Assembly: GCA_903854475.1 (NCBI GenBank)
Contig: CAINWP010000097.1
Location: 1 to 57,475, forward strand
From: an uncultured Verrucomicrobiota bacterium
Lineage (GTDB): Bacteria > Verrucomicrobiota > Verrucomicrobiia > Limisphaerales > UBA9464
Direction of reading: 5' to 3'
DNA length: 57,475 nt
Shown here: piece by piece, positions 10,280 to 22,472 of the stretch
Position numbering within the stretch: the stretch's first letter is position 1
Layout of the letters: each line of letters begins with the position of its first letter
The notes under the pieces: model-generated
Seen by the model: the letters and a program-made list of their open reading frames with translations, nothing else
Databases searched by the model: none
What the model was told of the DNA's origin: nothing
Program-made: the position numbers and the translations under genes

Positions 10280-10315
10280 GCGGCCCTCCATCGGTGTCCG
10301 AGGCCCCATTCTAGC

Positions 10316-10580
10316 ATAGAGAAAAGTAAAAATCCGGGGGTTGTCGCAGGGTGTCCCCTTAGAATACCGGGGGATCACACCCATCGCAGGGTATTTTCAA
10401 TATTTTCAAAAAGGGGTCCGTTGCGTGTGTGCGCGATGTGATTTACATTGTTGACAATTCTACTTTTACCGCGCGCGGCCGGAAAACTCCAATTCTCGTT
10501 TAACCCCCGGACACCCTGCGATCCCCCGGTATTCTAGGGACACACCCTGCGACAACCCCCGGATTTTTGCTTTTCTCTAT
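10316..10580. repeat. 61-bp inverted repeat around an AT-rich centre (candidate origin or packaging site)
   Basis: The left arm 10316-10376 and right arm 10520-10580 are reverse complements with 57 of 61 positions matching. Each arm holds TCGCAGGGTGT, and a further copy lies just inside each arm (about 10384 and 10512), giving four copies in mirror symmetry. The 143-bp centre contains two tandem TATTTTCAA (10392-10409) and an AT-rich stretch with TTGTTGACAATT (10448-10459). It occupies most of the 428-bp gap between terS and the plus-strand gene at 10708. It could be an origin, a pac region or a shared operator. The repeat is certain; the role is inferred. Confidence 0.9.
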
Positions 10581-10650
10581 AGAAGAACCCCCCCTGCATC
10601 CAGGTTCCATAATACGGCAAACGGACCGTGGTCCTCGGACCCCGTGACCC

Positions 10651-10679
10651 TTGACATGCAAAACGTACCCCAATAAAGT
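10651..10679 (+). promoter_or_regulatory. Strong sigma70-like promoter of early block 2
   Basis: Consensus TTGACA (10651-10656), 17-bp spacer, TAAAGT (10674-10679) within CAATAAAGTA. The start point would be near 10686, 22 bases before ATG 10708. The same CAATAAAGTA -10 context recurs at 16291-16300. Confidence 0.8.
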
Positions 10680-10707
10680 AGTGTCACCCCCTGTTCAGGA
10701 GCCCATC

Positions 10708-10995
10708 ATGGTAAAAATCGAGACCGACGTCCCTTTCACAACGAACCTTCCCGCCCGCTATTCTGGTTTCCCCCGCAAGTGGCCGTGGACCGAGATGAAA
10801 CCCGGCGACAGCTTCTGCGTCCTGACCGAGGCCGAGATGAAGTCCGCCCGCAATTCCTTGTACCAGCATCGCCTGACGGTCCACTGCAAGATCCCCTCCA
10901 CATGGGTCGCGGCCACACAGAAGACCGCCGAGGGCTATCGCCTCTGGCTGATCGACACAAAAAACATCGTGACCCCTGTTGACACACCCACATAG
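10708..10995 (+). CDS. Small conserved phage protein, paralogue of 14323-14583
   Basis: 95 aa from ATG 10708 with AGGAG 7 bases upstream; upstream in-frame codons lie in the promoter. The pattern WPWTEMKPGDSF ... ARNSLYQHR ... YRLWLID is shared with the 86-aa protein at 14323 (YPWLTMKVGDSF ... RLWLVEK), so the two are paralogues. Similar proteins are common in phage early regions with unknown function. A second promoter overlaps its 3' end. Confidence 0.75.
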   Translation: MVKIETDVPFTTNLPARYSGFPRKWPWTEMKPGDSFCVLTEAEMKSARNSLYQHRLTVHCKIPSTWVAATQKTAEGYRLWLIDTKNIVTPVDTPT

Positions 10996-11008
10996 TGTGT
11001 TCTATACC
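10979..11008 (+). promoter_or_regulatory. Sigma70-like promoter upstream of 11058
   Basis: TTGACA (10979-10984), 18-bp spacer, TATACC (11003-11008). It overlaps the 3' end of the 10708 gene and would start about 40 bases before ATG 11058. Confidence 0.65.
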
Positions 11009-11057
11009 TATCCCATGCTCACTGATTCGGTGCGCACTCACAAGAAAGGTGAGCCAT

Positions 11058-11318
11058 ATGTCCAACTTGACCGAGACAGAACACACTATCCTCGCCGAGG
11101 TCCGTCATCACGCGCGCAGCCTGACCGAGACCACCTCCGCCTTGTACTGGGACACCCCGTTCGAGGCCGTCTTGATCCGTCGTCTCCGGGATGACCTGTC
11201 CAAGCTCGTGTCCCTGTATGACACCCCCGAGGTCACCAGCATCCTTGGCCGCTCTGCCCCCCGCACCCGCTACTCTTGGGACGGACACGGCACCACAGCC
11301 CACGTGGAGACCGTCTGA
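11058..11318 (+). CDS. Small hypothetical protein
   Basis: 86 aa from ATG 11058, ribosome site AAGGTGAG. Helical (TETEHTILAEVRHHARSL, AVLIRRLRDDLSKLVSLY) with a polar C-terminal tail. Its TGA overlaps the next ATG (TGATG), so it is coupled to the 11318 gene. Not recognised. Confidence 0.65.
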   Translation: MSNLTETEHTILAEVRHHARSLTETTSALYWDTPFEAVLIRRLRDDLSKLVSLYDTPEVTSILGRSAPRTRYSWDGHGTTAHVETV

Positions 11319-11590
11319 TGGCCTACGCCCCTCGCCAAGTCGAGACCCACAAGGTGACCCTGCGCACGGTCATGCGCCGGGCGTCCTTTGTCCAAGGTCA
11401 CCGGTCCTTCCTGCAAGGCAAGCCGCTCAATTACGACGCCTACCCCCTCTGCATCAACGAGCAGTGGTCCTATGAGCGTGGTCGCCAGTTCGCGGCCATC
11501 TTCCCCGAACCTGTGAAGAACGGAAAGACCATCCGCACCGCCGCCCTGTACGCCTACGCTGGCGCTCTGAACCGGAGGGAGATCCTATGA
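11318..11590 (+). CDS. Small hypothetical basic protein
   Basis: 90 aa from ATG 11318, overlapping the upstream stop by one base and the downstream start by four (ATGA at 11587). Basic N-terminal half (RQVETHKVTLRTVMRRASF), then YDAYPLCINEQWSYERGRQF, which resembles small conserved phage proteins of unknown function. The tight overlaps support real translation. Confidence 0.65.
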   Translation: MAYAPRQVETHKVTLRTVMRRASFVQGHRSFLQGKPLNYDAYPLCINEQWSYERGRQFAAIFPEPVKNGKTIRTAALYAYAGALNRREIL

Positions 11591-11991
11591 GCATGCGCTA
11601 CGTGTTCACCTACGAATACAACCCATCCCTCCCTGTCAGGCCCCACGCTGCCTATGTGGACACCGTCCTCGACGACGGGTCCGTCTTCGACCGTGACTTC
11701 CTCGGTGCGTTTGCCACCGAGGAGGAAGCTGCCGCCTGTCTGGCCAACACGGTTCACCCCGACATCGTCGACTGCTTCCACGGCTCGAGATCCATCAAGG
11801 ACCGTGAGCCGCTGGACGCTGACTTCCGTGCGTTTATCGACCTCGCCTCCGCTTACTACGGCAAGGCCCCCATGGATCTGCCTGTCGAGATCCGTGACCA
11901 GTTGGTGCGCGAGGTCTTGTACGGCGAGCAGCTTCTGGATGAAGAGCAGGAAGAATACCGGTCGTTCCGGTCATTTGGCTATGGAGCCTAA
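11587..11991 (+). CDS. Hypothetical acidic protein
   Basis: 134 aa, starting within the previous stop (ATGA). The N-terminal half looks like a small alpha/beta fold (MRYVFTYEYNP, AAYVDTVLDDGSVF, ATEEEAAACLANTV). The C-terminal half is helical and ends EEQEEYRSFRSFGYGA. No family recognised. Part of the coupled series 11058-12725. Confidence 0.6.
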   Translation: MSMRYVFTYEYNPSLPVRPHAAYVDTVLDDGSVFDRDFLGAFATEEEAAACLANTVHPDIVDCFHGSRSIKDREPLDADFRAFIDLASAYYGKAPMDLPVEIRDQLVREVLYGEQLLDEEQEEYRSFRSFGYGA

Positions 11992-12011
11992 CCCCAAGAA
12001 AGGAACAGCAC

Positions 12012-12725
12012 ATGAATTTCCTCAGCTATCTCGGCGGGATCCCCGCCTCTGCAAAAGAAGCCGTTGACGTGATCGCCAAGGGACCCGCTCCGACCGAACT
12101 GGAGCTATCCCTGCGTCAGATGCATGCCGACCACCTGACGGCCATGCAGGCCATCAAGAACCTCACGGAGATCGCGGTGAACCAGACCACAAGGGCCGTG
12201 GACCAAGTCGCACAGTTGCGCGAACTGAGGCGCACGATCACCGCCTCTGAGGTCAAGCACCTCGCCGCCTTCGAACTGGCGCTGCGCCCCGTGATGCGGG
12301 CCACCGACACCCTGATGGAAAAGGTGAACAACGTCGAGATGGAACTGTTCGCTAATCGTTCCATGATCGACGTCATGCGCAAGGAACTGCTCGCGGACCG
12401 TGAAGCGGCATTGGTGATCCACGGCGCGAAGCTCGACCTTGTTGCCGAGCGCCTTGACAAGCTGGTCAAGGTCGTCGCCAGAAGCCTGATCAAACACCCC
12501 GAGGGCGTGACCGTGGCCCCGCCCCCGAAACCTCGGGGTGGCAAGCGCAGCAATGCTGGCCGTAAGCCGGGGTCCAAGCCTCGCCCCCTCGATGTCCAAT
12601 ACGCCGACGTGTCCAACCGCCTCCAGCGTTGCCGCCCGAACAGCAAAGCGCGCCTGATATATCAGTTCAGGCTCACCGAGTTGCGTCAGAAGCTGGGCAT
12701 GGCCCCGATTCGGAAGGAAGGCTAA
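12012..12725 (+). CDS. Coiled-coil protein with an AT-hook-like basic segment
   Basis: 237 aa, ribosome site AAGAAAGGAA. Residues 25-160 are almost wholly helical, with coiled-coil character (LRQMHADHLTAMQAIKNL, LMEKVNNVEMELFANRSM). A Pro/Gly/Lys/Arg segment near residue 175 (KPRGGKRSNAGRKPGSKPRP) resembles an AT-hook, followed by a short helical tail. DNA binding is plausible. Its stop overlaps the nuclease start (TAATG). Confidence 0.6.
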   Translation: MNFLSYLGGIPASAKEAVDVIAKGPAPTELELSLRQMHADHLTAMQAIKNLTEIAVNQTTRAVDQVAQLRELRRTITASEVKHLAAFELALRPVMRATDTLMEKVNNVEMELFANRSMIDVMRKELLADREAALVIHGAKLDLVAERLDKLVKVVARSLIKHPEGVTVAPPPKPRGGKRSNAGRKPGSKPRPLDVQYADVSNRLQRCRPNSKARLIYQFRLTELRQKLGMAPIRKEG

Positions 12726-13120
12726 TGATCTGTTCTGTCCTCGCCATCTGCGCCGTCATAGCCGGATCCCCGTCAGTCCATGACGGGGATACACTTACGA
12801 TCCACGGACAGGCCATTCGCCTGTTTGGGGTCGATGCTGAGGAACTTGACGAGCCTCACGGGCCACAGGCCCGTGAGGCCCTGCGAGCCCTCGTCAGGAA
12901 GACCGAGTATGTCCGCTGCGAACTGAGTGGAGAGCGGTCCTACAACCGTCTGGTGGGAATCTGCTACACGGCAGAGGGCCTGAACCTCAACGAGGCCATG
13001 ATCCGTGGTGGCCATGCCTTGGACTGTGCCAGATATTCTGGCGGTCTTTACCGTCAGTTTGAACCCATGGCGATACGCCTGAAGCTCACCCAGAAACCCT
13101 ATTGCAGGAGCAAGCAATGA
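12725..13120 (+). CDS. Staphylococcal-nuclease-like (thermonuclease) protein
   Basis: 131 aa from ATG 12725. After a short hydrophobic N-terminus (CSVLAICAVIAG, residues 3-14), SPSVHDGDTL, IRLFGVDAEE and SYNRLVG give the SNase active-site set (Asp20/Asp22, Arg32, Glu40, Arg75). All key residues are present. It should hydrolyse DNA or RNA phosphodiesters. The N-terminus could export it to the periplasm, where it might attack competing DNA, or it may degrade host DNA in the cell. Two strong hairpins lie inside the gene. It is coupled to both neighbours. Confidence 0.85.
   Translation: MICSVLAICAVIAGSPSVHDGDTLTIHGQAIRLFGVDAEELDEPHGPQAREALRALVRKTEYVRCELSGERSYNRLVGICYTAEGLNLNEAMIRGGHALDCARYSGGLYRQFEPMAIRLKLTQKPYCRSKQ
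12766..12878 (+). other. Two strong hairpins inside the thermonuclease gene
   Basis: ATCCCCGTCA-gtcca-TGACGGGGAT (12766-12790, 10-bp perfect stem) and CCTCACGGGCC-aca-GGCCCGTGAGG (12854-12878, 11-bp perfect stem). Both are near the 5' end of the message and lack T-runs, so they may affect translation or RNA turnover. Confidence 0.8.
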
Positions 13121-13386
13121 CCACGAAACCCCTCACCAACGATGAAGCCCACACGCTAGCGTGTGGGCTAGAGTCGCAGATCCTGAAGGTCTTGAGCGGG
13201 AACGTAGACTATGTGGCCATGACCGCCCTGACTTATGCCGCCGCCACGCTGATCGTCCAAATGCCCACCCGGGGGGCCAGCCACGACGAGCAGTTGGACA
13301 TGTTTGATGGGCAGTTGCGCACGGCTGTCGGAATCTTACTGAGACATCGGATAGACGCCGAAAAGCACCGAAGGGCGATGAACTGA
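13117..13386 (+). CDS. Small hypothetical helical protein
   Basis: 89 aa from ATG 13117, overlapping the upstream stop (ATGA). The helical pattern (NDEAHTLACGLESQILKVL, VAMTALTYAAATLIVQM, LRTAVGILLRHRIDAEKHR) looks like a small soluble helical bundle. Not recognised. Codons 11-18 are encoded by a perfect 22-bp palindrome. Confidence 0.6.
   Translation: MTTKPLTNDEAHTLACGLESQILKVLSGNVDYVAMTALTYAAATLIVQMPTRGASHDEQLDMFDGQLRTAVGILLRHRIDAEKHRRAMN
13147..13168. repeat. Perfect 22-bp palindrome within a coding region
   Basis: GCCCACACGC-TA-GCGTGTGGGC is self-complementary over all 22 bases, 30 bases into the 13117 gene. It may act as a protein-binding site or as a cruciform/hairpin near the start of the message. 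Confidence 0.85.
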
Positions 13387-13496
13387 TGATCCACTTACAA
13401 ATCATCCTGATCATTGCGGCGGCAACATGCGCGATGGCGGACAGCACAGGTTTTGCCCTGTTCTTCTGCGTCGTGTTCCTGTTTACCACATCATGA
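13386..13496 (+). CDS. 36-aa membrane micro-protein
   Basis: ATG 13386 overlaps the upstream stop (TGATG); stop TGA 13494-13496. It encodes two hydrophobic stretches, LQIILIIAAATCAMA and GFALFFCVVFLFTT, enough for one or two membrane passes. The overlap and the following AGGAA plus start at 13507 support translation. It could be a small envelope or holin-like factor; unproven. Confidence 0.55.
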   Translation: MIHLQIILIIAAATCAMADSTGFALFFCVVFLFTTS

Positions 13497-13506
13497 GGAA
13501 CGCGCC

Positions 13507-13836
13507 ATGACTGACGATCTTGTGAAGCGGCTAGAGCAATCTATTAAGATGAGCCGCGCTGACTATTGGGAAGTTCAAGCATCCATGTGGCATGAGAGCT
13601 ACAAGGGAGTTGCCGACCGCATCGAGAAGCTGGAGGCCGATTTAGAAATCGCCACAATGAAACGCATTCTTGATGCCGACCGCATCGAGAAGCTGGAGGC
13701 GGCGCTGGCAAAGGTGGCGGACGGATATGAAACAGAGTGGTCAACAAGTTCTGTAACCAACATGCTCGACATCGCGCAGATACTGTCTGAGAGAATTGTT
13801 ATCGCCCGCAAAGCACTGGAGGGGAAAGATGACTGA
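13507..13836 (+). CDS. Coiled-coil early protein, paralogue family member 1
   Basis: 109 aa from ATG 13507 with AGGAA upstream. MTDDLVKRLEQ at the N-terminus and IVIARKALEGKDD at the C-terminus are nearly repeated in the next gene. ADRIEKLEA occurs twice inside (about residues 37 and 58) and again in the third paralogue, encoded by near-identical DNA. The type resembles lambda Ea22/Ead-like proteins found in variable early regions. It overlaps the next gene by 8 bases. Confidence 0.7.
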   Translation: MTDDLVKRLEQSIKMSRADYWEVQASMWHESYKGVADRIEKLEADLEIATMKRILDADRIEKLEAALAKVADGYETEWSTSSVTNMLDIAQILSERIVIARKALEGKDD

Positions 13837-14065
13837 CGATCTTGTGAAGCGGCTGCGCGATAAAGTTGAGGCCAGTAGGATTTATGACGACGACGAAGAG
13901 ATTCTTGATGAAGCCGCCCACCACATCGAAACGCTTGAATATGTCATGAAGGACGACGCCAAGTGGCTGGCTGCATACCATAAATGGTGCGAAATGAATG
14001 GCTGCGCCCCGTCATCTTCCGACCTGATTGCCGCCCGCAAAACACTGGAGGGGGAAGATGAGTGA
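13829..14065 (+). CDS. Coiled-coil early protein, paralogue family member 2
   Basis: 78 aa from ATG 13829, preceded by GGAGGGGAAAG. It starts MTDDLVKRLRDKVEA and ends IAARKTLEGEDE, matching the ends of the upstream protein around a different middle. This suggests domain shuffling between tandem copies. Overlaps of 8 bases on both sides. Confidence 0.7.
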   Translation: MTDDLVKRLRDKVEASRIYDDDEEILDEAAHHIETLEYVMKDDAKWLAAYHKWCEMNGCAPSSSDLIAARKTLEGEDE

Positions 14066-14321
14066 ATCATTCAAAATCTGCATCCAACGAGCAGAGACGC
14101 GCCAAGAGTGGGATGAAATGCAAGCCGATTACATTTGGCGCGCACTGCTTTCTGCCGACCGCATCGAGAAGCTGGAGGCGGCGCTGCGGCCTTTCGCGAA
14201 ATGGGCTGACGCCTATGACCCCGAAGAGAATGACGATGATCGCGAGGCGTGGGATCACGCGCCGACCATCGGGATGCTGCGCGCCGCGCGCAACGCAATG
14301 GGTGAACTGAAGGGAAAATAA
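14058..14321 (+). CDS. Coiled-coil early protein, paralogue family member 3
   Basis: 87 aa from ATG 14058, preceded by GGAGGGGGAAG, the same junction sequence as its upstream paralogue. It carries SADRIEKLEAALRPFAKWAD, whose DNA (about 14155-14188) nearly repeats 13676-13708, followed by a common phage-type tail (DHAPTIGMLRAARNAM). Function unknown. Confidence 0.7.
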   Translation: MSESFKICIQRAETRQEWDEMQADYIWRALLSADRIEKLEAALRPFAKWADAYDPEENDDDREAWDHAPTIGMLRAARNAMGELKGK

Positions 14322-14322
14322 C

Positions 14323-14583
14323 ATGTCCAACAAGACCATCGAAATAGATCGCCACGTTCCGTTGCCCAAGGGCGAAACCCGCAACCTTCCTCTCTACCCA
14401 TGGCTTACCATGAAGGTGGGGGATAGCTTTGCAGTTGTCGGAAAGATCTCCGCATCGGCTGCGCGGGGCAGCTTCCGCCGTTACCAGAAGCTGGGACAGA
14501 TCCCCGAGAACCTGAAGGCCATTCAACGGACCATGGACGATGAGGGGCCGGGCCATGTGCGCCTGTGGCTCGTGGAGAAATGA
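14323..14583 (+). CDS. Small conserved phage protein, paralogue of 10708-10995
   Basis: 86 aa. YPWLTMKVGDSFAV ... AARGSFRRYQKL ... HVRLWLVEK corresponds position by position to the 10708 protein. Two diverged copies of the same family 3.6 kb apart imply duplication or separate acquisition. Weak ribosome site AAGGGAAAA before ATG 14323. Confidence 0.7.
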   Translation: MSNKTIEIDRHVPLPKGETRNLPLYPWLTMKVGDSFAVVGKISASAARGSFRRYQKLGQIPENLKAIQRTMDDEGPGHVRLWLVEK

Positions 14584-14586
14584 GCC

Positions 14587-15054
14587 ATGAGTATAGAGTC
14601 AAGCGTAGACCCATCCGTCGATTGGCTGGCCCACGCCACAGAAAGGAAACGAAAACTAAACGCCCAGATTCAACAGGCATCGATCCTCCTAAAGAAGAAC
14701 CGGAGGATGCCGCCCCCGCCCCCGGTGAAGATTCCTATGCCCCCGGACCCCAAGCCGACGCCTAAACTCTCGCCCTCGGTGTTCACCAAACTGCTCGAAT
14801 ATGTCCCAATCTGGAGATCCATCCAGTTGGAGGTCTGCGACAAGTACCACGTGAACTTGAGGGATGTCCTCTCCGATATCCGGACAAAACAGTACATTAT
14901 TCCAAGGCAGGAGATGTATTATCGCATGCGTCACGAAGCGAAAATGTCCCTGTTGCACATTGGAATGCGAATGAGACGAGACCACACATCGGTGATGAAT
15001 GGAATCGAACGCCACACTAAACGTCTCGAAAAGGAAACCAAGCATGTATCATAA
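14587..15054 (+). CDS. DnaA domain IV-like DNA-binding protein
   Basis: 155 aa. The N-terminal third is basic, followed by a proline-rich linker (RMPPPPPVKIPMPPDPKPTP, about 40-59). Residues 80-145 fit the DnaA C-terminal (domain IV) helix-turn-helix: VCDKYHVNLRDVLSD, then IIPRQEMYYRMRHEAKMSL, then RDHTSVMNGIERH (131-143), the DnaA signature for DnaA-box contact. There is no AAA+ ATPase. It may mark the phage origin, block host DnaA boxes or act as a regulator. Overlaps the next gene by 11 bases. Confidence 0.85.
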   Translation: MSIESSVDPSVDWLAHATERKRKLNAQIQQASILLKKNRRMPPPPPVKIPMPPDPKPTPKLSPSVFTKLLEYVPIWRSIQLEVCDKYHVNLRDVLSDIRTKQYIIPRQEMYYRMRHEAKMSLLHIGMRMRRDHTSVMNGIERHTKRLEKETKHVS

Positions 15055-15334
15055 AGATGTCCTAAACGCCTGCATCGACACCGTGAACCAACGCGCCCAG
15101 TCCTACGGGAATGAGGACGACATGTTCGAGACGACGGCGCAGATCGCGTCCCTTCTTCTGGGCAGGGTGTTCACCAAGTACGAAATCTCCGTGGTCTTGG
15201 AATCTGTGAAGCTGGCCCGTCGCCGTTACGATCCTCTGCACGAGGACAGCTACATCGATCAGATCAATTACACTGCGTTCTCGGCGCAGTTTGCAAAGAG
15301 CGCCTTCATCGATCCCCCGGCTCAACAAGCCTAG
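15044..15334 (+). CDS. DUF6378-like small protein
   Basis: 96 aa from ATG 15044 with AAGGAA upstream. RAQSYGNEDDMFETTAQIAS ... VFTKYEISVVLESVKLARRR ... HEDSYIDQINYTAF matches the pattern of the DUF6378 family of phage proteins (RAxxYGxxxxNFxxxA ... KxAR ... HxDSxxDxxxY). The molecular role is not known to me; the layout recalls small helical nucleotide-metabolism or regulatory proteins. Confidence 0.75.
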   Translation: MYHKDVLNACIDTVNQRAQSYGNEDDMFETTAQIASLLLGRVFTKYEISVVLESVKLARRRYDPLHEDSYIDQINYTAFSAQFAKSAFIDPPAQQA

Positions 15335-15352
15335 CCAAAGCTGGAGGGTGAG

Positions 15353-15595
15353 ATGCATGAGGCAGACAGTATCTGTACCGTTGTTAGTGCATCTCCCTTC
15401 CAGTGTAGGTGGGTCACTGACATGGTCACCGAGTCCGGTCTCCGGATCCTTTGTGGTCAGCCCTGCCCGGGCACGGCAAGACCATGGTGCGCGGACCACT
15501 ACCCCCTTATCTACATCAAGAAAGGATCGAGGAATGACGACCTATCTGCCGACACTGGTGGTGGAGAACGTAACAATAAAAGGCCTCGGCGTTGA
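15353..15595 (+). CDS. GcrA C-terminal-like zinc-knuckle protein
   Basis: 80 aa from ATG 15353 with GGAGGG 5 bases upstream. Residues 17-53 read FQCRWVTDM ... ILCGQPC ... PWCADHYPLIY. This matches the C-terminal end of alphaproteobacterial GcrA (CRWP ... FCG ... PYCxxHxxxAY). The N-terminal DNA-binding HTH of GcrA is absent. GcrA's C-terminal region is reported to contact sigma70, so the protein might mimic or compete with GcrA. That is inference. The last 20 residues overlap the next gene by 62 bases and may be loosely constrained. Confidence 0.65.
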   Translation: MHEADSICTVVSASPFQCRWVTDMVTESGLRILCGQPCPGTARPWCADHYPLIYIKKGSRNDDLSADTGGGERNNKRPRR

Positions 15596-15863
15596 GTTCG
15601 TCGGGGACGTTTGCGTATTCTATGCGGGCGATGACTATGTGTGGCCCATGAACTTCGTCGGGAACCTGACCAAGCTGATAAGCGCCGACCCGAAGCCGGT
15701 CTTTGGGGAGTGGAGCAAGGGTCCGATCTTCAACAAGCTGAAGCGTATGACGTTCAGCAACAAAGAGTTCTTGGCCAGCGCCAAGATGACCGTGCGTGAC
15801 CACAAAGCCTTCATGTCAGGAGAGAAAGATGATGAACCCAGAGTTGAAGAACCTGTTGTGTGA
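15534..15863 (+). CDS. Hypothetical protein
   Basis: 109 aa from ATG 15534, preceded by GAAAGGATCGAGGA. The N-terminal half is beta-rich (LPTLVVENVTIKGLGVEFV, VCVFYAGDDYVWPMNFVG) and the C-terminal half helical and basic. The frame overlaps both neighbours. No family recognised. Confidence 0.6.
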   Translation: MTTYLPTLVVENVTIKGLGVEFVGDVCVFYAGDDYVWPMNFVGNLTKLISADPKPVFGEWSKGPIFNKLKRMTFSNKEFLASAKMTVRDHKAFMSGEKDDEPRVEEPVV

Positions 15864-15915
15864 CGTCGAGGAATACCTCGCCAAGGAAGACGGGCAGCAC
15901 CCTCGGAGGTACTGA
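15829..15915 (+). CDS. 28-aa micro-protein, short paralogue of 15987-16286
   Basis: ATG 15829 to TGA 15915, preceded by AGGAGAGAAAG. NPELKNLLCDVEEYLAKEDG followed by QHPRRY aligns with the start of the 15987 protein (SIDSLLSDIEEYFVDNSD ... YPHRY). It is therefore probably a truncated or minimal copy. Below normal gene-calling length. Confidence 0.5.
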   Translation: MMNPELKNLLCDVEEYLAKEDGQHPRRY

Positions 15916-15986
15916 GGGTGTCACACAAAAGAGGTCTTATCCCCGAGCGGATCGACCGTCCGCTCTTATCTGGAAAGGGAAGCACA

Positions 15987-16286
15987 ATGCGTCTTTCGAT
16001 TGATAGCCTGCTGTCCGATATCGAAGAGTACTTCGTTGACAATTCGGACCCATATCCCCACCGCTACAAGCGCCTCGATCCCCGTGGCCTGCTGGGCCGC
16101 GCCTACACCCTGATCGCCGAACTTGACGAGAAGGTCGTGCTGCAAGACGCAGAGGATCACCTGTTCGAGGACGATGAGGAATACGACGAAGAGTATGACC
16201 CCGAACAGGATGGCGAGGAGTACGAGGAGGAGACCGAGGAAGATGACGACAGCGAAGTCGTTGACAATGTTGACGACGTCAAGTAA
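15987..16286 (+). CDS. Small protein with a very acidic tail
   Basis: 99 aa from ATG 15987 with GGAAAGGGA. The N-terminal 50 residues are helical (LLSDIEEYF ... RGLLGRAYTLIAELDEKV). Residues 56-99 are nearly all Asp/Glu/Tyr (FEDDEEYDEEYDPEQDGEEY). Such DNA-mimic-like tails occur in phage inhibitors of DNA-binding host proteins; that role is only a possibility here. A promoter for the next gene overlaps its 3' end. Confidence 0.65.
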   Translation: MRLSIDSLLSDIEEYFVDNSDPYPHRYKRLDPRGLLGRAYTLIAELDEKVVLQDAEDHLFEDDEEYDEEYDPEQDGEEYEEETEEDDDSEVVDNVDDVK

Positions 16287-16299
16287 TCGTCAATAAAGT
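16270..16299 (+). promoter_or_regulatory. Sigma70-like promoter upstream of 16322
   Basis: TTGACG (16270-16275), 18-bp spacer, TAAAGT (16294-16299), in the context CAATAAAGTA shared with the promoter at 10651. The start point would be near 16306, giving a short leader of about 15 bases before ATG 16322. Confidence 0.6.
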
Positions 16300-16321
16300 A
16301 ACCGACGACGGGACCCGTGGA

Positions 16322-16630
16322 ATGGAAGAGACAAGCGCCTACATCCTTGATATAAAAAGGATTTTCAAACTGTCCACACAACTGGCCTCGGTCCTTGAGC
16401 TTTTGCTCGTGAAGGATATGGTCCGTTCGGACGACTTGAAGCCCCTGTTCTCCACCTTCCACGGGGAACGCCGCCACCACAACACCGACCGCATGATGGT
16501 GTATCGTTTGCGGTCGAAGCTTGCCAAGATCAAGGTGTGCATCTTCACCCAGTACGGCGAAGGGTACTTCCTAAAGGCCGCAGACAAGGCTTACCTCAAA
16601 GGGATTCTGATGGGGGTCATCGATGTCTGA
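16322..16630 (+). CDS. Winged-helix (OmpR-type) DNA-binding protein
   Basis: 102 aa. The pattern QLASVLELLLVKDMV, DRMMVYRLRSKLAKI and IFTQYGEGYFL matches the OmpR/PhoB effector winged helix (recognition helix then beta-hairpin wing GxGY). There is no receiver domain, so it is a stand-alone DNA binder, a candidate early regulator. It has its own promoter. The ribosome site is poor (CCGTGGA). Overlaps the next gene by 8 bases. Confidence 0.65.
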   Translation: MEETSAYILDIKRIFKLSTQLASVLELLLVKDMVRSDDLKPLFSTFHGERRHHNTDRMMVYRLRSKLAKIKVCIFTQYGEGYFLKAADKAYLKGILMGVIDV

Positions 16631-17210
16631 CAGGAAGACATACCTGTACCGAGTGTTTGATGGTGACAAGAACCTCATCTACGTCGGGATATCGCTCAGT
16701 TTTTTTTCACGCCTGCAACAACACAAGAAAAACTCGGTCTGGTTCGACAAAATGTCTTCGGTCACGCTGACCCAGTACATGACACGAGAAGAAGCCTTGT
16801 TCGCCGAGGCGACTGCCATCAACACCGAGAACCCGCAGATGAACATCATGCGGCCACGGTCCAAGGAGCTAGAACTGGCGCAAAAGGTTCTAGCGGACCG
16901 GAGTAGGGCTGAAAGAAAAGTCTGGGTTCAGACTGACGCTTCGAGGGATTTCCTTATAGAAAAGGTCGTGCGGTTCGAGGTTCTCTACACCCTATCGGAG
17001 GCCGCGAACGTCCTGAACCTAACCCGAAAAGCCCTAGACAAGCTCATCGAGGACAAGGGCCTTGGACATATCACCCTTCCGTTGAAGCCCGGGAAGAACG
17101 CCTACGGGCAACCGCACAAGCCGAAGATCATGGTCAGTGGTTGGCAGATCATTGACTACCTCGAGGGCTTACACACCCCCCAAACCATGGACAGAAGGAA
17201 GTCGAGATGA
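16623..17210 (+). CDS. GIY-YIG nuclease with C-terminal HTH
   Basis: 195 aa. Residues 7-75 carry a GIY-YIG fold: YRV (9-11) and YVG (20-22) strands, Arg30 in FFSRLQQH, Glu62 in FAEATAI and Asn74 in QMNIM, so the catalytic set is complete. Residues 115-190 form a helix-turn-helix (YTLSEAANVLNLTRKALDKL) with a MerR/excisionase-like look and a C-terminal strand. A freestanding homing-type or host-DNA-degrading endonuclease is possible. There is no intron or intein beside it. Confidence 0.8.
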   Translation: MSDRKTYLYRVFDGDKNLIYVGISLSFFSRLQQHKKNSVWFDKMSSVTLTQYMTREEALFAEATAINTENPQMNIMRPRSKELELAQKVLADRSRAERKVWVQTDASRDFLIEKVVRFEVLYTLSEAANVLNLTRKALDKLIEDKGLGHITLPLKPGKNAYGQPHKPKIMVSGWQIIDYLEGLHTPQTMDRRKSR

Positions 17211-17434
17211 GCAAGGACGACGACATCATCGAACTCGTTGAAGATGAGATGCCGATCTTCGATGACCCGGTTTCCCAACGCGCCTACGCCTTCGTTCATC
17301 TGGCCCAGTTCGCTGAATCCTCGAAGGACGACACGGCTAGGGATCTGACCTACACCATGATGCGCAAGGTATGCGCCTCGATCAAAACTACCTCGACCGC
17401 CGACCTAAAGGTCATCGATGGTGGGAAATCCTAA
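17207..17434 (+). CDS. Small acidic protein, end of early block 2
   Basis: 75 aa, starting within the previous stop (ATGA). Acidic N-terminus (DDDIIELVEDEMPIFDD), then a helical AYAFVHLAQFAE / TYTMMRKVCASI region. Not recognised. Its TAA overlaps the TAG of the convergent polymerase gene, so no terminator separates the two opposing operons. Confidence 0.65.
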   Translation: MSKDDDIIELVEDEMPIFDDPVSQRAYAFVHLAQFAESSKDDTARDLTYTMMRKVCASIKTTSTADLKVIDGGKS

Positions 17435-19314
17435 TCGAAAGCCTCGTCTAGGCCCTTCGTTGCCTCACCCCACGAAGGGCCTAGCTCTGCGTCTACGACA
17501 GTCGGAACGAGAAGATCGACGCCGCTCTGCATGATCTCCATGATCCGTTGGCCGTGTTCCTTGCTCTCAACGGACAGGGCCAACTCATCGTGGATCTGGA
17601 TCATCGGCAGGATGCCAGCCTCATAGAGGTCCACCATCGCCTTCTTGGTCTGGTCCGCAGCGGACCCTTGGATCAACCGGTTAAGTGCCTTGTAGGTGTA
17701 TGCCCGCTTCAGCATGGTGGTGTCGCCATAGGTCTGGCGCGCCTCCTCCTTGGGCAGACCCTTGTGAACCCCGAAGGTGGCAGGCTCCCACAGGTCGAAC
17801 CGGCAGCGGCGCCCGAGCAGGGTGCGGATGACGCCTCGGTGGTCGGCGGTCTTCGACACCCGGGTGGTCAGGTCACGGACGAAGGGGACCTTGTCGTGGT
17901 AGGTCTTGAACAGTTCCTTGGCGGCATCGATGTCGAGACCGAGCTGCTCGCCCAGCTTGTTCACCCCCATCCCGTAGAACAGGCCGAGGTTGATGGTCTT
18001 GGCCTGCTTGCGGGGGACGCCCACGATGTCGGCTGCAAGCTGGTGGAAGTCCGTGCGGGGGTCATCCCGATAGGCCTTCACAAAGCTGTCCGCTCCGCCG
18101 AGTGACAGGATCTGGGAATAGTGGACCACGATCCGAGGTTCTTGGGACGAGTAGTCGAAGCTGCCCCACTGGCACCCCTCCTCCGGAAGGAATAGGCCAC
18201 GGATCAGGGGGCTGATCTCACCGTCGCGCGCAGGAATCTGTTGAAGGTTGGGGTTTGAATAGCTGAAGCGCCCGGTCACCGTACCGCCGTCATCGGATCG
18301 AAGCTGGTGGATGTCGGCATGGATGCGCCCGTTGATCGTATGCTTAGTGATCGAATCGATGAACGTCGTGCGGGCCTTGTTCAGTTCGCGCGCCTTGACG
18401 ATAGCCTTGGCAATCGGGTGCGAATGGGTGGCCAAATAGTTCTTGGTGAAGGACGGAGCTTCGGTCTTGGCAGTGCGGGGATAAGTCAGGTTCAAAGCAT
18501 CGAAGACCTTGGCCACGGACGCCGCCGCCCAGACGTTGACGTCCACGCCAGAGGTATCTCGCACGTACTCGAGTATGCTCGACTCCTGTAGGTGCAGCTT
18601 CTTCTTGACCAGATCTGCCTTGTCAAGATCAACACGCACACCCCGGGCGCGCATGGCGAGGCAGACCTTCAGGACCCGCATCTCCAAATCGAAGATCGAG
18701 GACAGCTCCTCGGTGACGATCAGGTTCCGGAGGTGGATCCACAGGCGCAGGGTAAGGGCGGCATCCTGTTCAGCGTAGCGGCCGACGAAGTGGGCAGGCA
18801 GCTTGTGCATCTCGGCCTTGGGGTCGAGGCCCATCTCCTTCGCCGCCTCGCGCAGGGCGCGCTCGTCCTTGCGCTCCTTGAGGTAGTCGAACCCGAGGTT
18901 GTTGAGCGAATAGCTGAAGCGGTTCTCGTCGAGCAGAGGAGCAGCCACCATCGTATCGGCAATGGTCCCCTTGATCTCGACGCCCTCCCGGCGCATCCAG
19001 CCCACGTCATACATGGCGTTGTGGAAGACGTAGGTGCAGTCGGGGTTCGAGCAGACATCGGCCAGCCAGCGCAGGGCCATGCGCGCATCGAGGTTGCCGC
19101 CGTTCGCATGACGGATGGGGAAGTACCACGACGCCCCCTCCACGGCGACGGCTATGCCAATGATGTGTCCGTTGCCTGTCGCCCACCCCGCCCCTGTTTC
19201 TTTCAGGCCGGGGTCATAGGTCTCAAGATCTATCGCGATAAGCCGGGCGTCGGACAAATCCGGGAAGCTGTCCGGCATCACCCATTCTGTCTCGTGCGTG
19301 TACTGGAATGACAT
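17431..19314 (-). CDS. Family A DNA polymerase with 3'-5' exonuclease
   Basis: 627 aa replicative polymerase. The exonuclease domain is intact: ExoI AIDLE (D29, E31), ExoII FHNAMYD (N99, D103), ExoIII YAEQD (Y180, D184). In the polymerase domain, motif A is FDYSSQEPRI (D387), motif B RKQAKTINLGLFYG (435-448) and motif C QIHDEL (H575, D576, E577). The residue equivalent to E. coli Pol I Phe762 is Leu443. There is no 5'-3' exonuclease domain. GAAGGTGAG precedes ATG 19314. Last gene of the replication operon, after primase and helicase. Confidence 0.95.
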   Translation of the reverse strand: MSFQYTHETEWVMPDSFPDLSDARLIAIDLETYDPGLKETGAGWATGNGHIIGIAVAVEGASWYFPIRHANGGNLDARMALRWLADVCSNPDCTYVFHNAMYDVGWMRREGVEIKGTIADTMVAAPLLDENRFSYSLNNLGFDYLKERKDERALREAAKEMGLDPKAEMHKLPAHFVGRYAEQDAALTLRLWIHLRNLIVTEELSSIFDLEMRVLKVCLAMRARGVRVDLDKADLVKKKLHLQESSILEYVRDTSGVDVNVWAAASVAKVFDALNLTYPRTAKTEAPSFTKNYLATHSHPIAKAIVKARELNKARTTFIDSITKHTINGRIHADIHQLRSDDGGTVTGRFSYSNPNLQQIPARDGEISPLIRGLFLPEEGCQWGSFDYSSQEPRIVVHYSQILSLGGADSFVKAYRDDPRTDFHQLAADIVGVPRKQAKTINLGLFYGMGVNKLGEQLGLDIDAAKELFKTYHDKVPFVRDLTTRVSKTADHRGVIRTLLGRRCRFDLWEPATFGVHKGLPKEEARQTYGDTTMLKRAYTYKALNRLIQGSAADQTKKAMVDLYEAGILPMIQIHDELALSVESKEHGQRIMEIMQSGVDLLVPTVVDAELGPSWGEATKGLDEAFD

Positions 19315-19441: not shown

Positions 19442-20949
19442 ATTAAAGGGAAGCCCCTAGAGTTCATCGGATGAATCAAGTGGAGTTCTTTCTTCGCGCG
19501 TGTCAGGCCGACGTAGAATACACGCTTCTCGTCGTCTAGTTCAGTCCTAGTTGCATTGCCCCCCGTGATCCGCTGTGGGCAATCGGTGAGAAGCAAGACG
19601 TTAGTTGCCTCGGCACCCTTTGCAGAATGGATAGTTGAGATCCGGATGCGTGGTTCTTTGGTGAGGTCTTCGCCTCGGCGCATGCAAGCCTTGTAGTAGA
19701 TCACTTCGTTTTCGGGGATCGCAGCAAGGGCCTCGGTCCACGGTTCGTCCGTGACCAACCCATGGTCCATCTTCAATGCCTCAATGTTCAGCAGCGTATC
19801 CTCAGGGATATCGGGCAGCGTCTTATGCCCCCGCAGAACTTGCTTGTTGAGGACCATGTACTTGTAGACGTAGCGAACGTCCTTTGCGGTGATGCTTTCC
19901 CCGCGCCTCAGGGCCTCCCAGAGCTGGATCGCAGCCACGCACTGGTGGCTCATGTCCTTGGACAAACTAAACGAGTACAGCAGGCCTCTCTGCCTCACCT
20001 CGGCCTCAAGCCTCTTGGCATCCCTGCGGGTGCGAGCGAGCAGCAACCAGTCCTCGTTGTCGAGGTTGACCTCTTCGCTGTGCCGGTGGCGGAAAATCGA
20101 GCCGCTCTCCGGGCGGGGAAGAAACTCCTTCTTCCTGCGGTTGTGGATGCTTTGGATCAACCGCTGGCTCATGCTGTGGTGCAGGGCAGGGATGCGGTAG
20201 CTCTGGCCGAGGACCTCGCTCGTCGTGTTCAGGCGGATGAAGTACTCGACATCGGCTCCAGCCCACCTATAGATGGCCTGATCATCGTCGCCTGCTAACA
20301 CCATTTCCTTGCTGCGCTTGGCAATCTGGTGGACCATGGCCCACTGTATGGGAGACAGATCCTGTACCTCATCGATGAACACGACATCGAACTGGGGGGA
20401 CAGCTCACGGGCAAGGAAGATCTCCAGCATGTCGGTGAAGTCGTAGAGGTTATGTGCTTTCTTGAAGGCCCGTAGGCCACGGTCCACGTACTCGACCTTC
20501 GAGAAATTTGTAGTGAGGGAGACGGGAGACTTATTATAGACCATGCGCAGGGGGATCATGCAGATGCGGGACATGTTGATGATCTCAAGGAAGCGGTCGC
20601 CCATCCCGTACTCTTGGTACGGGCCTTCCTCCATCGGGCGCGTCTCGATGAACGACCCTATGTGCAGCCAATCCGCACACTCTTGGTAATGAGAAAGGGT
20701 CATCACGTCCTTGCGGTCGATCCCCGCCCGGTGCATGGCGAGGCTATGCAGGGTACGAAAGTAAGGGAGGTCCTTGTAGGACAGGTGGAACCTCTTGACG
20801 GCGCGGGTGATCGCCTCCTCCGCAGCGCGCTTGGTGAAGGAGAAGTACCCGATCCTGTCGGGCGGGACGCCACGGTCCATGGCCTGTTCGACCATGGTGA
20901 GGAGGCGGGTAGTCTTGCCGGTTCCCGGAGGGCCAAGGATGATGTGCAT
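19438..20949 (-). CDS. UvrD/Rep-like superfamily 1 helicase
   Basis: 503 aa, shorter than cellular UvrD (about 720). Motif I GPPGTGKT (6-13), Ia FSFTKRAAEEA, II FIDEVQD (191-197), III LAGDDDQAIYRWAGA (218-231), IV LGQSYRIP, V STIHSAKGAEA and VI FYVGLTRAKK are all present, so it should be an active 3'-5' DNA helicase. The reduced 1B/2B regions fit phage forms. It lies directly between primase and polymerase (TGATG and ATGA overlaps). No DnaB- or T7 gp4-type helicase is seen, so this is the best candidate for fork unwinding. Confidence 0.93.
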   Translation of the reverse strand: MHIILGPPGTGKTTRLLTMVEQAMDRGVPPDRIGYFSFTKRAAEEAITRAVKRFHLSYKDLPYFRTLHSLAMHRAGIDRKDVMTLSHYQECADWLHIGSFIETRPMEEGPYQEYGMGDRFLEIINMSRICMIPLRMVYNKSPVSLTTNFSKVEYVDRGLRAFKKAHNLYDFTDMLEIFLARELSPQFDVVFIDEVQDLSPIQWAMVHQIAKRSKEMVLAGDDDQAIYRWAGADVEYFIRLNTTSEVLGQSYRIPALHHSMSQRLIQSIHNRRKKEFLPRPESGSIFRHRHSEEVNLDNEDWLLLARTRRDAKRLEAEVRQRGLLYSFSLSKDMSHQCVAAIQLWEALRRGESITAKDVRYVYKYMVLNKQVLRGHKTLPDIPEDTLLNIEALKMDHGLVTDEPWTEALAAIPENEVIYYKACMRRGEDLTKEPRIRISTIHSAKGAEATNVLLLTDCPQRITGGNATRTELDDEKRVFYVGLTRAKKELHLIHPMNSRGFPLI

Positions 20950-22472
20950 CAGAACGGATCCACAATGTTGAGGGCCGGGAGATCAAGCTTGATGTCCTCG
21001 ACGCCTTGGAAGTAGGACTGTGGCAGGAACCACAGGTGGGCGGTCTTGCCCTTGATCCGCCAGTCAACCTTCTCTGCCTTGAGTTCTTTAAGGCGCAGGC
21101 CCAACTGGACGTTGTTGTACTTGATGAAGGCGTTGGCTTTCAGATGCTTCTGTAGATCGCGCAGTTGGAAGTAGACGTGTTCGTCCACCCACACGGCGAT
21201 GCCTTGCAGGATCTCCTCACGCTCGACGCCGCGCGCACGGTCGCAACAAAAGGACATGAGGAGTTCTTCGAACTCGCCTCTGGCAGTGGCCTCTGGCGGG
21301 ACCTCGATGATGGTGAGCGAGGCAAGCAGAGTCTGCATGCGCGCGGACCACGCCTTCTCGCTCATAGTCTTGGGGTACAGGTTGATCTGGTTCAGGCAGT
21401 CCTTCTGGAATTGCTTCTGCATGACGAGGCTTTCTGTCGCCAACTCCACGCGCTTGCCGTCCACGTCCATGATCCAGACAGGCGGGTCGCCATTGATCTT
21501 GGTCAGTGAGCCAAGGTCATTGGACTTCTGCCCGGGGCCGATCCCGAACTTGCGGCCAATGCAGACTTCCTTGTTGCAGTAGCTGGCGATGGGCTGGTCA
21601 TCGCACTTGTAGAAGTATTCCTTCTTCGATAGCTGGGAGATGATGATCTCCACCTCTTTGTCGAAGAGCGGGGGGATCATCAGGGTCTGGTTGTAGTGAC
21701 GGACACGCTCCTCCCATTTGTCGGGTGAAGCCATACGCGCATAGACACCGAGGTTGAAGAGCGCATTGTTGCGACCACCTTCACCGAAGCCCTGTGCTGC
21801 CAGTTGCTGTAGGCATGGTGGTCCCTTTGGAAGAACCTCCTCGGCCTTCTTAGGTGCCGTTTCATAATCGAGAAAAGCATCTGGTGATACCGCTCGACCT
21901 TCGGCGAACAGGACAAACTCTTCTGGACCAAGGCTTTCTCCCTTGTCGTTGTAACCGTATCGCGTAGTCCGTGTGCCTGCGAAGTAAGGCATGTTGAGGA
22001 AGTTGCCGGTGTCGCCCCGGTCAACAAGGATCTCTTGCTGTTTAGGGAACACCTCTGATCCAGCGTAGCCAAGGAGCGCGGCCATCGAGACAAGCTTTGG
22101 TTGCAAATCCGCAGCGGGCAACTCTTCGGTGAAGAAAAAGTACAGGTGAGCGCCCCCTGATTTGGAGCGGCAAACGACACCCGGCAGTTGGTGCTTTTCG
22201 ACCTGACGGATCAAGGCGGAGTGGTCTAAGTTGTAGACGTCAATATCGATGGCCCCCCAATGACACTTGTTGTTATCCTTGATAGGGATGATGCCAAGCC
22301 CTGTGCCCCCGGCCAGATGCTCAGTCCAATGGTTCACGGTCGGCGGATCACGGAGGATGCGCGCCTGACCCTGTTTCTTCCCATCACGTTGGCGGTCGTT
22401 CTGAACATTGAATGTTCCGTGCGCCCGTCCATTGCCCGTGAACAGCGTAAAGTATCTCTGTGCAAGGTCCAT
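20949..22472 (-). CDS. Archaeo-eukaryotic-type primase (AEP)
   Basis: 507 aa. The AEP catalytic core shows WGAIDIDVY (D76, D78), CRSKSGGAHLYFF (Ser105, His109) and ILVDRGDTGNFLNMPYFAG, the three AEP motifs; the style resembles the TOTE/phage AEP family. FGEGGRNNALFNLGVYARM (after about residue 230) resembles a PriCT region. CDDQPIASYCNKEVCIGRKF adds four cysteines, possibly zinc-binding, as in priming helicase-primases. It should make primers and perhaps polymerise dNTPs. A terminator lies just upstream, setting expression below that of the SSB. Confidence 0.88.
   Translation of the reverse strand: MDLAQRYFTLFTGNGRAHGTFNVQNDRQRDGKKQGQARILRDPPTVNHWTEHLAGGTGLGIIPIKDNNKCHWGAIDIDVYNLDHSALIRQVEKHQLPGVVCRSKSGGAHLYFFFTEELPAADLQPKLVSMAALLGYAGSEVFPKQQEILVDRGDTGNFLNMPYFAGTRTTRYGYNDKGESLGPEEFVLFAEGRAVSPDAFLDYETAPKKAEEVLPKGPPCLQQLAAQGFGEGGRNNALFNLGVYARMASPDKWEERVRHYNQTLMIPPLFDKEVEIIISQLSKKEYFYKCDDQPIASYCNKEVCIGRKFGIGPGQKSNDLGSLTKINGDPPVWIMDVDGKRVELATESLVMQKQFQKDCLNQINLYPKTMSEKAWSARMQTLLASLTIIEVPPEATARGEFEELLMSFCCDRARGVEREEILQGIAVWVDEHVYFQLRDLQKHLKANAFIKYNNVQLGLRLKELKAEKVDWRIKGKTAHLWFLPQSYFQGVEDIKLDLPALNIVDPF

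Follow-up and report, generated by a model that had tools for sequence, protein, structure and literature searches.

A GcrA-like phage protein reduced to its predicted sigma-interacting domain, and a phage clade in which the DNA-binding half has probably been lost

The locus described here, from an uncultivated phage lineage, raises the question of what a GcrA-type protein could still do without the half with which it reads DNA. In Caulobacter GcrA the DNA-binding domain (residues 1-45) recognises methylated DNA and the sigma-interacting domain (SID, residues 108-173) binds region 2 of the sigma factor, sigma2, as described in PMC7403470. A preliminary description of the 57,475-nucleotide stretch of DNA analysed in this work (henceforth the window) pointed to a short open reading frame (ORF) whose product resembles the C-terminal part of GcrA, and both the ORF and its CRW/CG/PWC motif are present where they had been placed (Table 1). 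The protein, which we call mini-GcrA, carries the motif residues C18-R-W20, C34-G35, P44-W45-C46, H49 and Y54, among which C18, C34, C46 and H49 are the presumed metal ligands. An in-frame stop lies six codons ahead of the ATG, hence no DNA-binding half is hidden in frame upstream of the gene. A G-rich site 5' of the start is found in most of the relatives as well, and the short gene is under purifying selection: dN/dS is 0.11-0.31 in 11 of 13 pairs, and only the two pairs with the fewest changes are higher (0.45 and 0.47).

Table 1. Positions in the window of mini-GcrA and of the neighbouring features considered in the text
Feature	Position	Strand	Remarks
Stand-alone DnaA C-terminal (domain IV) helix-turn-helix protein	14587..15054	+	Pfam PF08299, E 9.6e-14
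DUF6378 protein, directly 5' of mini-GcrA	14999..15334	+	Pfam PF19905, E 1.3e-11
Shine-Dalgarno-like GGAGGG	15343..15348	+	Just 5' of the mini-GcrA ATG, assigned by sequence
mini-GcrA, SID-only GcrA-like protein, 80 aa	15353..15595	+	ATG at 15353, stop ends at 15595
Downstream gene, 109 aa	15534..15863	+	62-base overlap with the 3' end of the mini-GcrA ORF
Small OmpR-type winged-helix protein, between mini-GcrA and the DNA polymerase	16322..16630	+	Pfam Trans_reg_C, E 0.0034, below cut-off
Family A DNA polymerase, used to gather and order relatives	17431..19314	-	Pfam E 2.2e-60

Taken by itself, the window protein shows a likeness to GcrA that is statistically borderline, a hint and not a proof. 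It has no match in Pfam, PHROG or NCBIfam, and among the 177,635 sequences of the PDB (E up to 10) its sole match is the GcrA SID of 5YIX, with E 0.46. When all 791 ORFs of the window were compared with a GcrA SID profile of ten sequences (5YIX plus nine phage proteins that BLAST retrieved with it), mini-GcrA ranked first with E 0.0015, the next ORF following at 0.036, but one of 20,000 shuffles of its sequence outscored it.

The family to which the protein belongs removes most of this doubt. The first viral scan revealed two close relatives (77% and 84% identity), and the close-relative searches, made with the window protein and with a three-row alignment, returned only two viral loci. Relatives were then gathered from viral contigs by a DNA pattern with the fixed spacing of the window's own motif, which found 52 stretches. 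Of these, 16 are SID-only genes and 21 are GcrA-like frames that are longer or open; of the other 15, all but one are interrupted by a stop within the match. The resulting alignment, A2, comprises the window protein and 15 relatives that are 34-84% identical to it (L050 was omitted as a repeat). A pattern built on the window's own motif could favour look-alikes; the loci gathered by their DNA polymerase, independently of the pattern, yield this short family again in the clade of the window (see below), with the caveat that several of these contigs coincide with the pattern-gathered ones and that the profile applied to them was built from A2. Outside these collections, tightening the pattern gave no match in genome contigs, which rules out that exact motif only; tblastn with the window protein and with its relative L057 against 50,697 phage records retrieved no convincing SID-only relative, and a plasmid search gave four weak matches (best E 0.3).

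Against the PDB, the 16-row A2 profile finds only GcrA above noise (5yix at E 3.2e-7 and 7ye1 at 1.3e-6; the next match, an unrelated protein, is at 0.38), and neither Crl nor RbpA is among its four matches with E up to 10. The GcrA family of Pfam (PF07750) is the commonest Pfam match, obtained for 14 of the 16 members (best E 2.1e-7); the window protein is not one of these 14, it and L067 gave no match when scanned with Pfam, and the curated cut-off of 26.9 bits is not reached by L025 (16.2), L030 (20.6) and L032 (24.1). The NCBIfam GcrA model is matched by 12 of the 16 (best 2.9e-6). By number of members the next Pfam family is zf-primase, with 3 of 16 and a best E of 0.044, and no other zinc-finger family in Pfam beats GcrA as a profile match; PHROG matches are weak and lead to families that lack a description (best 0.00047). 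In profile-profile comparisons, whose E-values are those of single pairs and lack library calibration, the short family matches the BLAST-found GcrA SIDs with 96% probability, the SIDs of a sister phage group introduced below with 97.6%, and, slightly higher than these, another full-length phage group typified by L023 with 98.2%. We regard this as clear evidence, at the level of sequence, that the short family corresponds to the C-terminal SID of GcrA.

Structure prediction points in the same direction. The AlphaFold model of mini-GcrA has a confident core (pLDDT about 90 over residues 11-50), and the top three Foldseek matches in the PDB are the three GcrA chains, with probabilities of 0.82-0.97 compared to 0.02 for the fourth match. 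The Foldseek E-values for these chains are modest (0.16-0.20), and so is the Z of 5.1 obtained when the model is superimposed with VIA-align on 5YIX (46 of its 48 residues at 2.7 A), as may be expected of so small a domain. The fold of mini-GcrA is thus predicted to be that of the GcrA C-terminal domain, the GcrA chains being the sole credible PDB matches at this modest Z. We looked both for a model unlike GcrA and for a better match among zinc-knuckle families, and the outcome favours GcrA, in keeping with the match to the end of GcrA that the preliminary description had noticed in the sequence.

Compared in detail with the Caulobacter crescentus GcrA SID (PDB 5YIX, 7YE1, 7YE2), mini-GcrA shares the C-R/K-W..CG..[Y/W]C..H core, the preceding TVL-like stretch and the predicted fold, residues 107-152 of Caulobacter GcrA aligning with residues 7-55 of the model. 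Unlike Caulobacter GcrA, the short family usually has V and not P after CRW, its spacings are 13 and 9 residues instead of 12 and 7, and mini-GcrA lacks the DNA-binding domain and the linker.

The history of this difference can be followed in the polymerase lineage. Relatives were gathered by the family A DNA polymerase of the window, without reference to the mini-GcrA gene, and the best 80 of 303 were kept. A SID-only gene was found in 15 of these 80 loci and a longer GcrA-like gene in 17 (14 with both halves and three, L082, L085 and L086, cut by contig ends inside the gene); in the remaining 48 no GcrA match was found in the available flank, which is often so short that "none" is no proof of absence (L097 has 930 bases beyond the polymerase, and several of the 48 have less). 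The polymerase tree contains 75 distinct rows, ten identical polymerases having been merged and L103 and L104 omitted because their polymerase is cut. In this tree all 15 SID-only rows, including the window, form one clade with SH-aLRT support of 95. An adjoining group of 15 rows (support 91; joint node 83) contains every longer gene in the tree and is made up of 11 full-length forms, the three cut by contig ends, and L097. The longer genes of this sister clade (L083-L098) belong to the same polymerase lineage and occupy the same place by the polymerase as mini-GcrA; unlike mini-GcrA, their products retain the linker and an N-terminal part that aligns with the beginning of the GcrA Pfam model. 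Scans of five sister proteins gave 38-54 bits (cut-off 26.9), the match starting at model positions 1-3 and covering almost all of PF07750.

In the SID tree, which is based on 73 columns and has several long branches, the short forms are nested among the sister full-length SIDs, their nearest relatives (87/92, 83/87), and the canonical GcrA proteins are separate (98/94). No separate GcrA-type DNA-binding domain was detected in the window (best E 2.9) or in 12 loci of the mini-GcrA clade (best overall 0.26), in a search whose five positive controls gave 1e-10 to 1e-20 within a five-sequence database. The preliminary description had the protein standing alone without a DNA-binding half, and this is borne out by the short ORF, the upstream stop and the lack of such a domain elsewhere in the window. 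Since the missing half was searched for and is absent, we classify mini-GcrA as a SID-only derivative of the GcrA family and not as a GcrA. Taken together, the two trees make a single loss of the DNA-binding half, in the common ancestor of the clade that contains the window, the simplest and most likely history, with loss rather than gain as the inferred direction.

It is possible that the DNA-binding function was not lost but transferred to another protein, so that mini-GcrA would be the sigma-binding half of a split activator and the choice of promoters would fall to the winged-helix protein at 16322 or to the DnaA-type protein at 14587. Both candidate partner genes lie within about 1 kb of mini-GcrA and often beside it. 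However, the winged-helix gene occurs in 14 of the 15 loci of the mini-GcrA clade and also in all 17 sister loci, where the GcrA genes are the longer ones, and its family was not found in the other GcrA-bearing loci searched (best E 0.14); the DnaA-type gene adjoins mini-GcrA in 8 of the 15 polymerase loci of the clade and was not found in the other 7. We consider a split activator quite improbable. The sister loci have the order polymerase, winged-helix gene, DUF6378 (near GcrA in 11 of 17), GcrA. The 109-aa downstream gene adjoins mini-GcrA in part of its clade, and its product has no Pfam family above cut-off.

Two suggestions concerning the winged-helix protein were dropped. It had been considered CtrA-like, and the profile of its family gives generic matches to OmpR-type DNA-binding domains only (E 0.007-0.16, 0.007 being the best). 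A pairing of GcrA with a winged-helix gene, taken from the annotation beside GcrA in Rhizobium phage Y1_10, was also abandoned, as that neighbour does not match the winged-helix family. The winged-helix protein of the window is kept beside the DNA polymerase in both clades, and some sister phages have shorter versions of it. Further along the window, beside a UvrD-type helicase and the polymerase, positions 20949-22472 encode a primase whose archaeo-eukaryotic primase domain is of the kind found in TOTE conflict systems (Pfam AEP-TOTE, E 6e-13).

As for the host, the preliminary description saw in the protein support for an alphaproteobacterium. The 4.4-Mb bin that holds the contig has no GcrA, and the GcrA Pfam model found nothing in 57 genomes of the bin's class (the bin and 56 others sampled), with a positive Caulobacter control; the bin is thus no ordinary alphaproteobacterium. 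The same model also scores above cut-off in a control archaeon, Sulfolobus acidocaldarius. The tetranucleotide distance between the window and 15 sampled contigs of the bin is 0.24, compared to 0.08-0.20 for each bin contig against the rest, a weak argument given how often phage and host differ. Three related polymerases (52-57% identity; L069, L070 and L071) come from metagenome-assembled genomes (MAGs) named Pelagibacter, Flavobacteriaceae and Maricaulis, and such unrelated names make the binning of this phage group look unreliable and misbinning likely. The nearest named phages are 023Pt_psg01, HTVC023P and HTVC027P, which infect Pelagibacter, and DSL-LC04, whose host is given as Gammaproteobacteria.

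The GANTC motif, whose m6A form marks the promoters at which GcrA acts, occurs at 0.38 of expectation in the mini-GcrA clade (rank 1), 0.69 in the sister clade, 0.99 in the bin and 0.77 in the window (rank 2 of 16 motifs; 44 sites, compared to 88 in a codon-shuffle control). This depletion is suggestive only: L099/L100/L102, which yielded no GcrA gene, show it strongly as well (0.25), and in the window CCNGG is depleted at least as much as GANTC (0.64 vs 0.77). Depletion of CCNGG besides GANTC extends across the loci of the mini-GcrA and sister clades, and in the first 15 kb of phage 023Pt_psg01 (L005) it is CTNAG that is almost absent, at 0.03 of expectation. Thus the kinship with Pelagibacter phages, the depletion of GANTC and a composition unlike the bin speak for the alphaproteobacterial host, and the lack of GcrA in the bin and its class speaks against it; judged from these sequence features, such a host is likely, though no more than that.

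The domain identity, the absence of the DNA-binding half, the single clade and the purifying selection were computed here, and they invite the following scenario. A GcrA gene in a phage lineage would have lost its N-terminal, DNA-reading half on one occasion and kept the domain that docks on sigma70 region 2 in Caulobacter. The short protein would fold around a presumed zinc site (C18, C34, C46, H49), bind the housekeeping sigma of the host at the site used by GcrA, and by occupying sigma2 keep the host's GcrA off RNA polymerase, so that GcrA-dependent cell-cycle transcription would be switched off during infection. In GcrA an additional domain makes essential promoter contacts, whereas Crl acts on sigma2 without touching DNA, as set out in PMC6917491; hence a SID alone should be able to dock without choosing promoters. 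Methylated promoters cannot be selected in the absence of the DNA-binding half, and the most likely effect would be the occupancy of sigma2 as such. We tentatively propose, from sequence comparison, that mini-GcrA is a DNA-blind SID that competes with the host's GcrA for region 2 of sigma, and consider this the most likely reading, if one that still falls a little short of an even chance. It would be undermined if the host were, after all, the non-alphaproteobacterium of the bin, in which there would be no GcrA to compete with.

The same facts are compatible with a role as co-activator, which we rank after competition and regard as rather unlikely. Here the SID would bind sigma2 in the holoenzyme and stabilise it in the manner of Crl, raising transcription at phage promoters, or at all promoters, irrespective of methylation. 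Sigma region 2 serves activators as a docking hub, at which Crl acts without contacting DNA (PMC6917491, PMC7403470); the gene is present in 15 of 15 loci of its clade and under selection; and a cofactor of this kind would function also in hosts that have no GcrA. However, the comparison with Crl is weakened by those essential promoter contacts of the additional GcrA domain (PMC6917491), and the region 10300-17500 has no excess of promoter-like sites over shuffled sequence (3 found vs 3.3 expected), so that no phage target promoter is in sight. The resemblance to Crl and RbpA, both activators that bind sigma region 2, would accordingly be one of working mode only, a possible docking on sigma2 (PMC7403470, PMC6917491). 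As to the broader proposal, that a sigma70 cofactor reading DNA methylation was cut down to a DNA-blind peptide predicted to bind sigma2, whether as competitor or as general sigma activator, we hold it to be an evenly balanced one.

A further alternative is that the Cys/His domain has been reused and no longer binds sigma, having acquired another protein, RNA or DNA as its partner. What the short form has in common with Caulobacter GcrA is mainly the set of fold-defining positions, and in Caulobacter phage RLK a SID-like domain is joined to another kind of N-terminal region. In the latter case, gp049 (L173:859-1422) ends in a SID-like domain that matches the short-family profile with E 1.4e-8 and the SID profile with 1.8e-6 (Z=1000); its N-terminal region differs from that of GcrA, no GcrA DNA-binding domain was detected in it, and the Pfam GcrA model gives just 0.043. 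Matches with the same scores were obtained in phages RW, GB2A and KcrB. On the other hand, the constraint on the domain has persisted after the loss of the other half and the similarity spans most of the SID, beyond the presumed ligands, which makes reuse improbable in our opinion.

Full-length GcrA homologues carried by phages were published as early as 2012, together with the suggestion that they may alter the replicative state of the host (PMC3556154; discussed in PMC9437464). Those of the phages of the phiCbK group, Brevundimonas and Rhizobium (PMC3556154) have in common with mini-GcrA a phage-carried SID of the GcrA family; the nine that were examined in full are 169-235 aa long, and in the SID tree the canonical ones form a group separate from the window family. 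Two GcrA-like ORFs were reported in Brucella phage Y17 (PMC11836647). By term search, the main text of the paper on HTVC023P-type genomes (PMC9599517) does not mention GcrA, and we found no SID-only form in the open-access literature. What is new here is the evolutionary result, a SID-only clade beside a full-length group. GcrA with a SID 54% identical to that of Caulobacter is also encoded by two phages recorded from Synechococcus, Ssp-JY42 (L006) and Yong-M4-211 (H20), and the true host of these phages may be an alphaproteobacterium in the culture.

The two phage clades, one with and one without the DNA-binding half, represent a natural experiment on the contribution of that half. If our proposal is true, mini-GcrA would be the first GcrA-type factor to work without DNA contact. 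Among the factors listed in PMC7403470, region 4 of the primary sigma is the target of the sigma-repressors, which with one exception are encoded by phages, and those listed for region 2 are activators of bacterial origin; this pattern would be broken by a phage factor that arose from a region-2 activator through reduction to its docking domain. Mini-GcrA is small, easily expressed and testable in Caulobacter, and gp049 of RLK offers a culturable test case in isolated Caulobacter phages. If mini-GcrA is a competitor, the cell-cycle transcription of the host would become uncoupled from methylation, and mini-GcrA may in this way let these phages take control of the reading of host genes.
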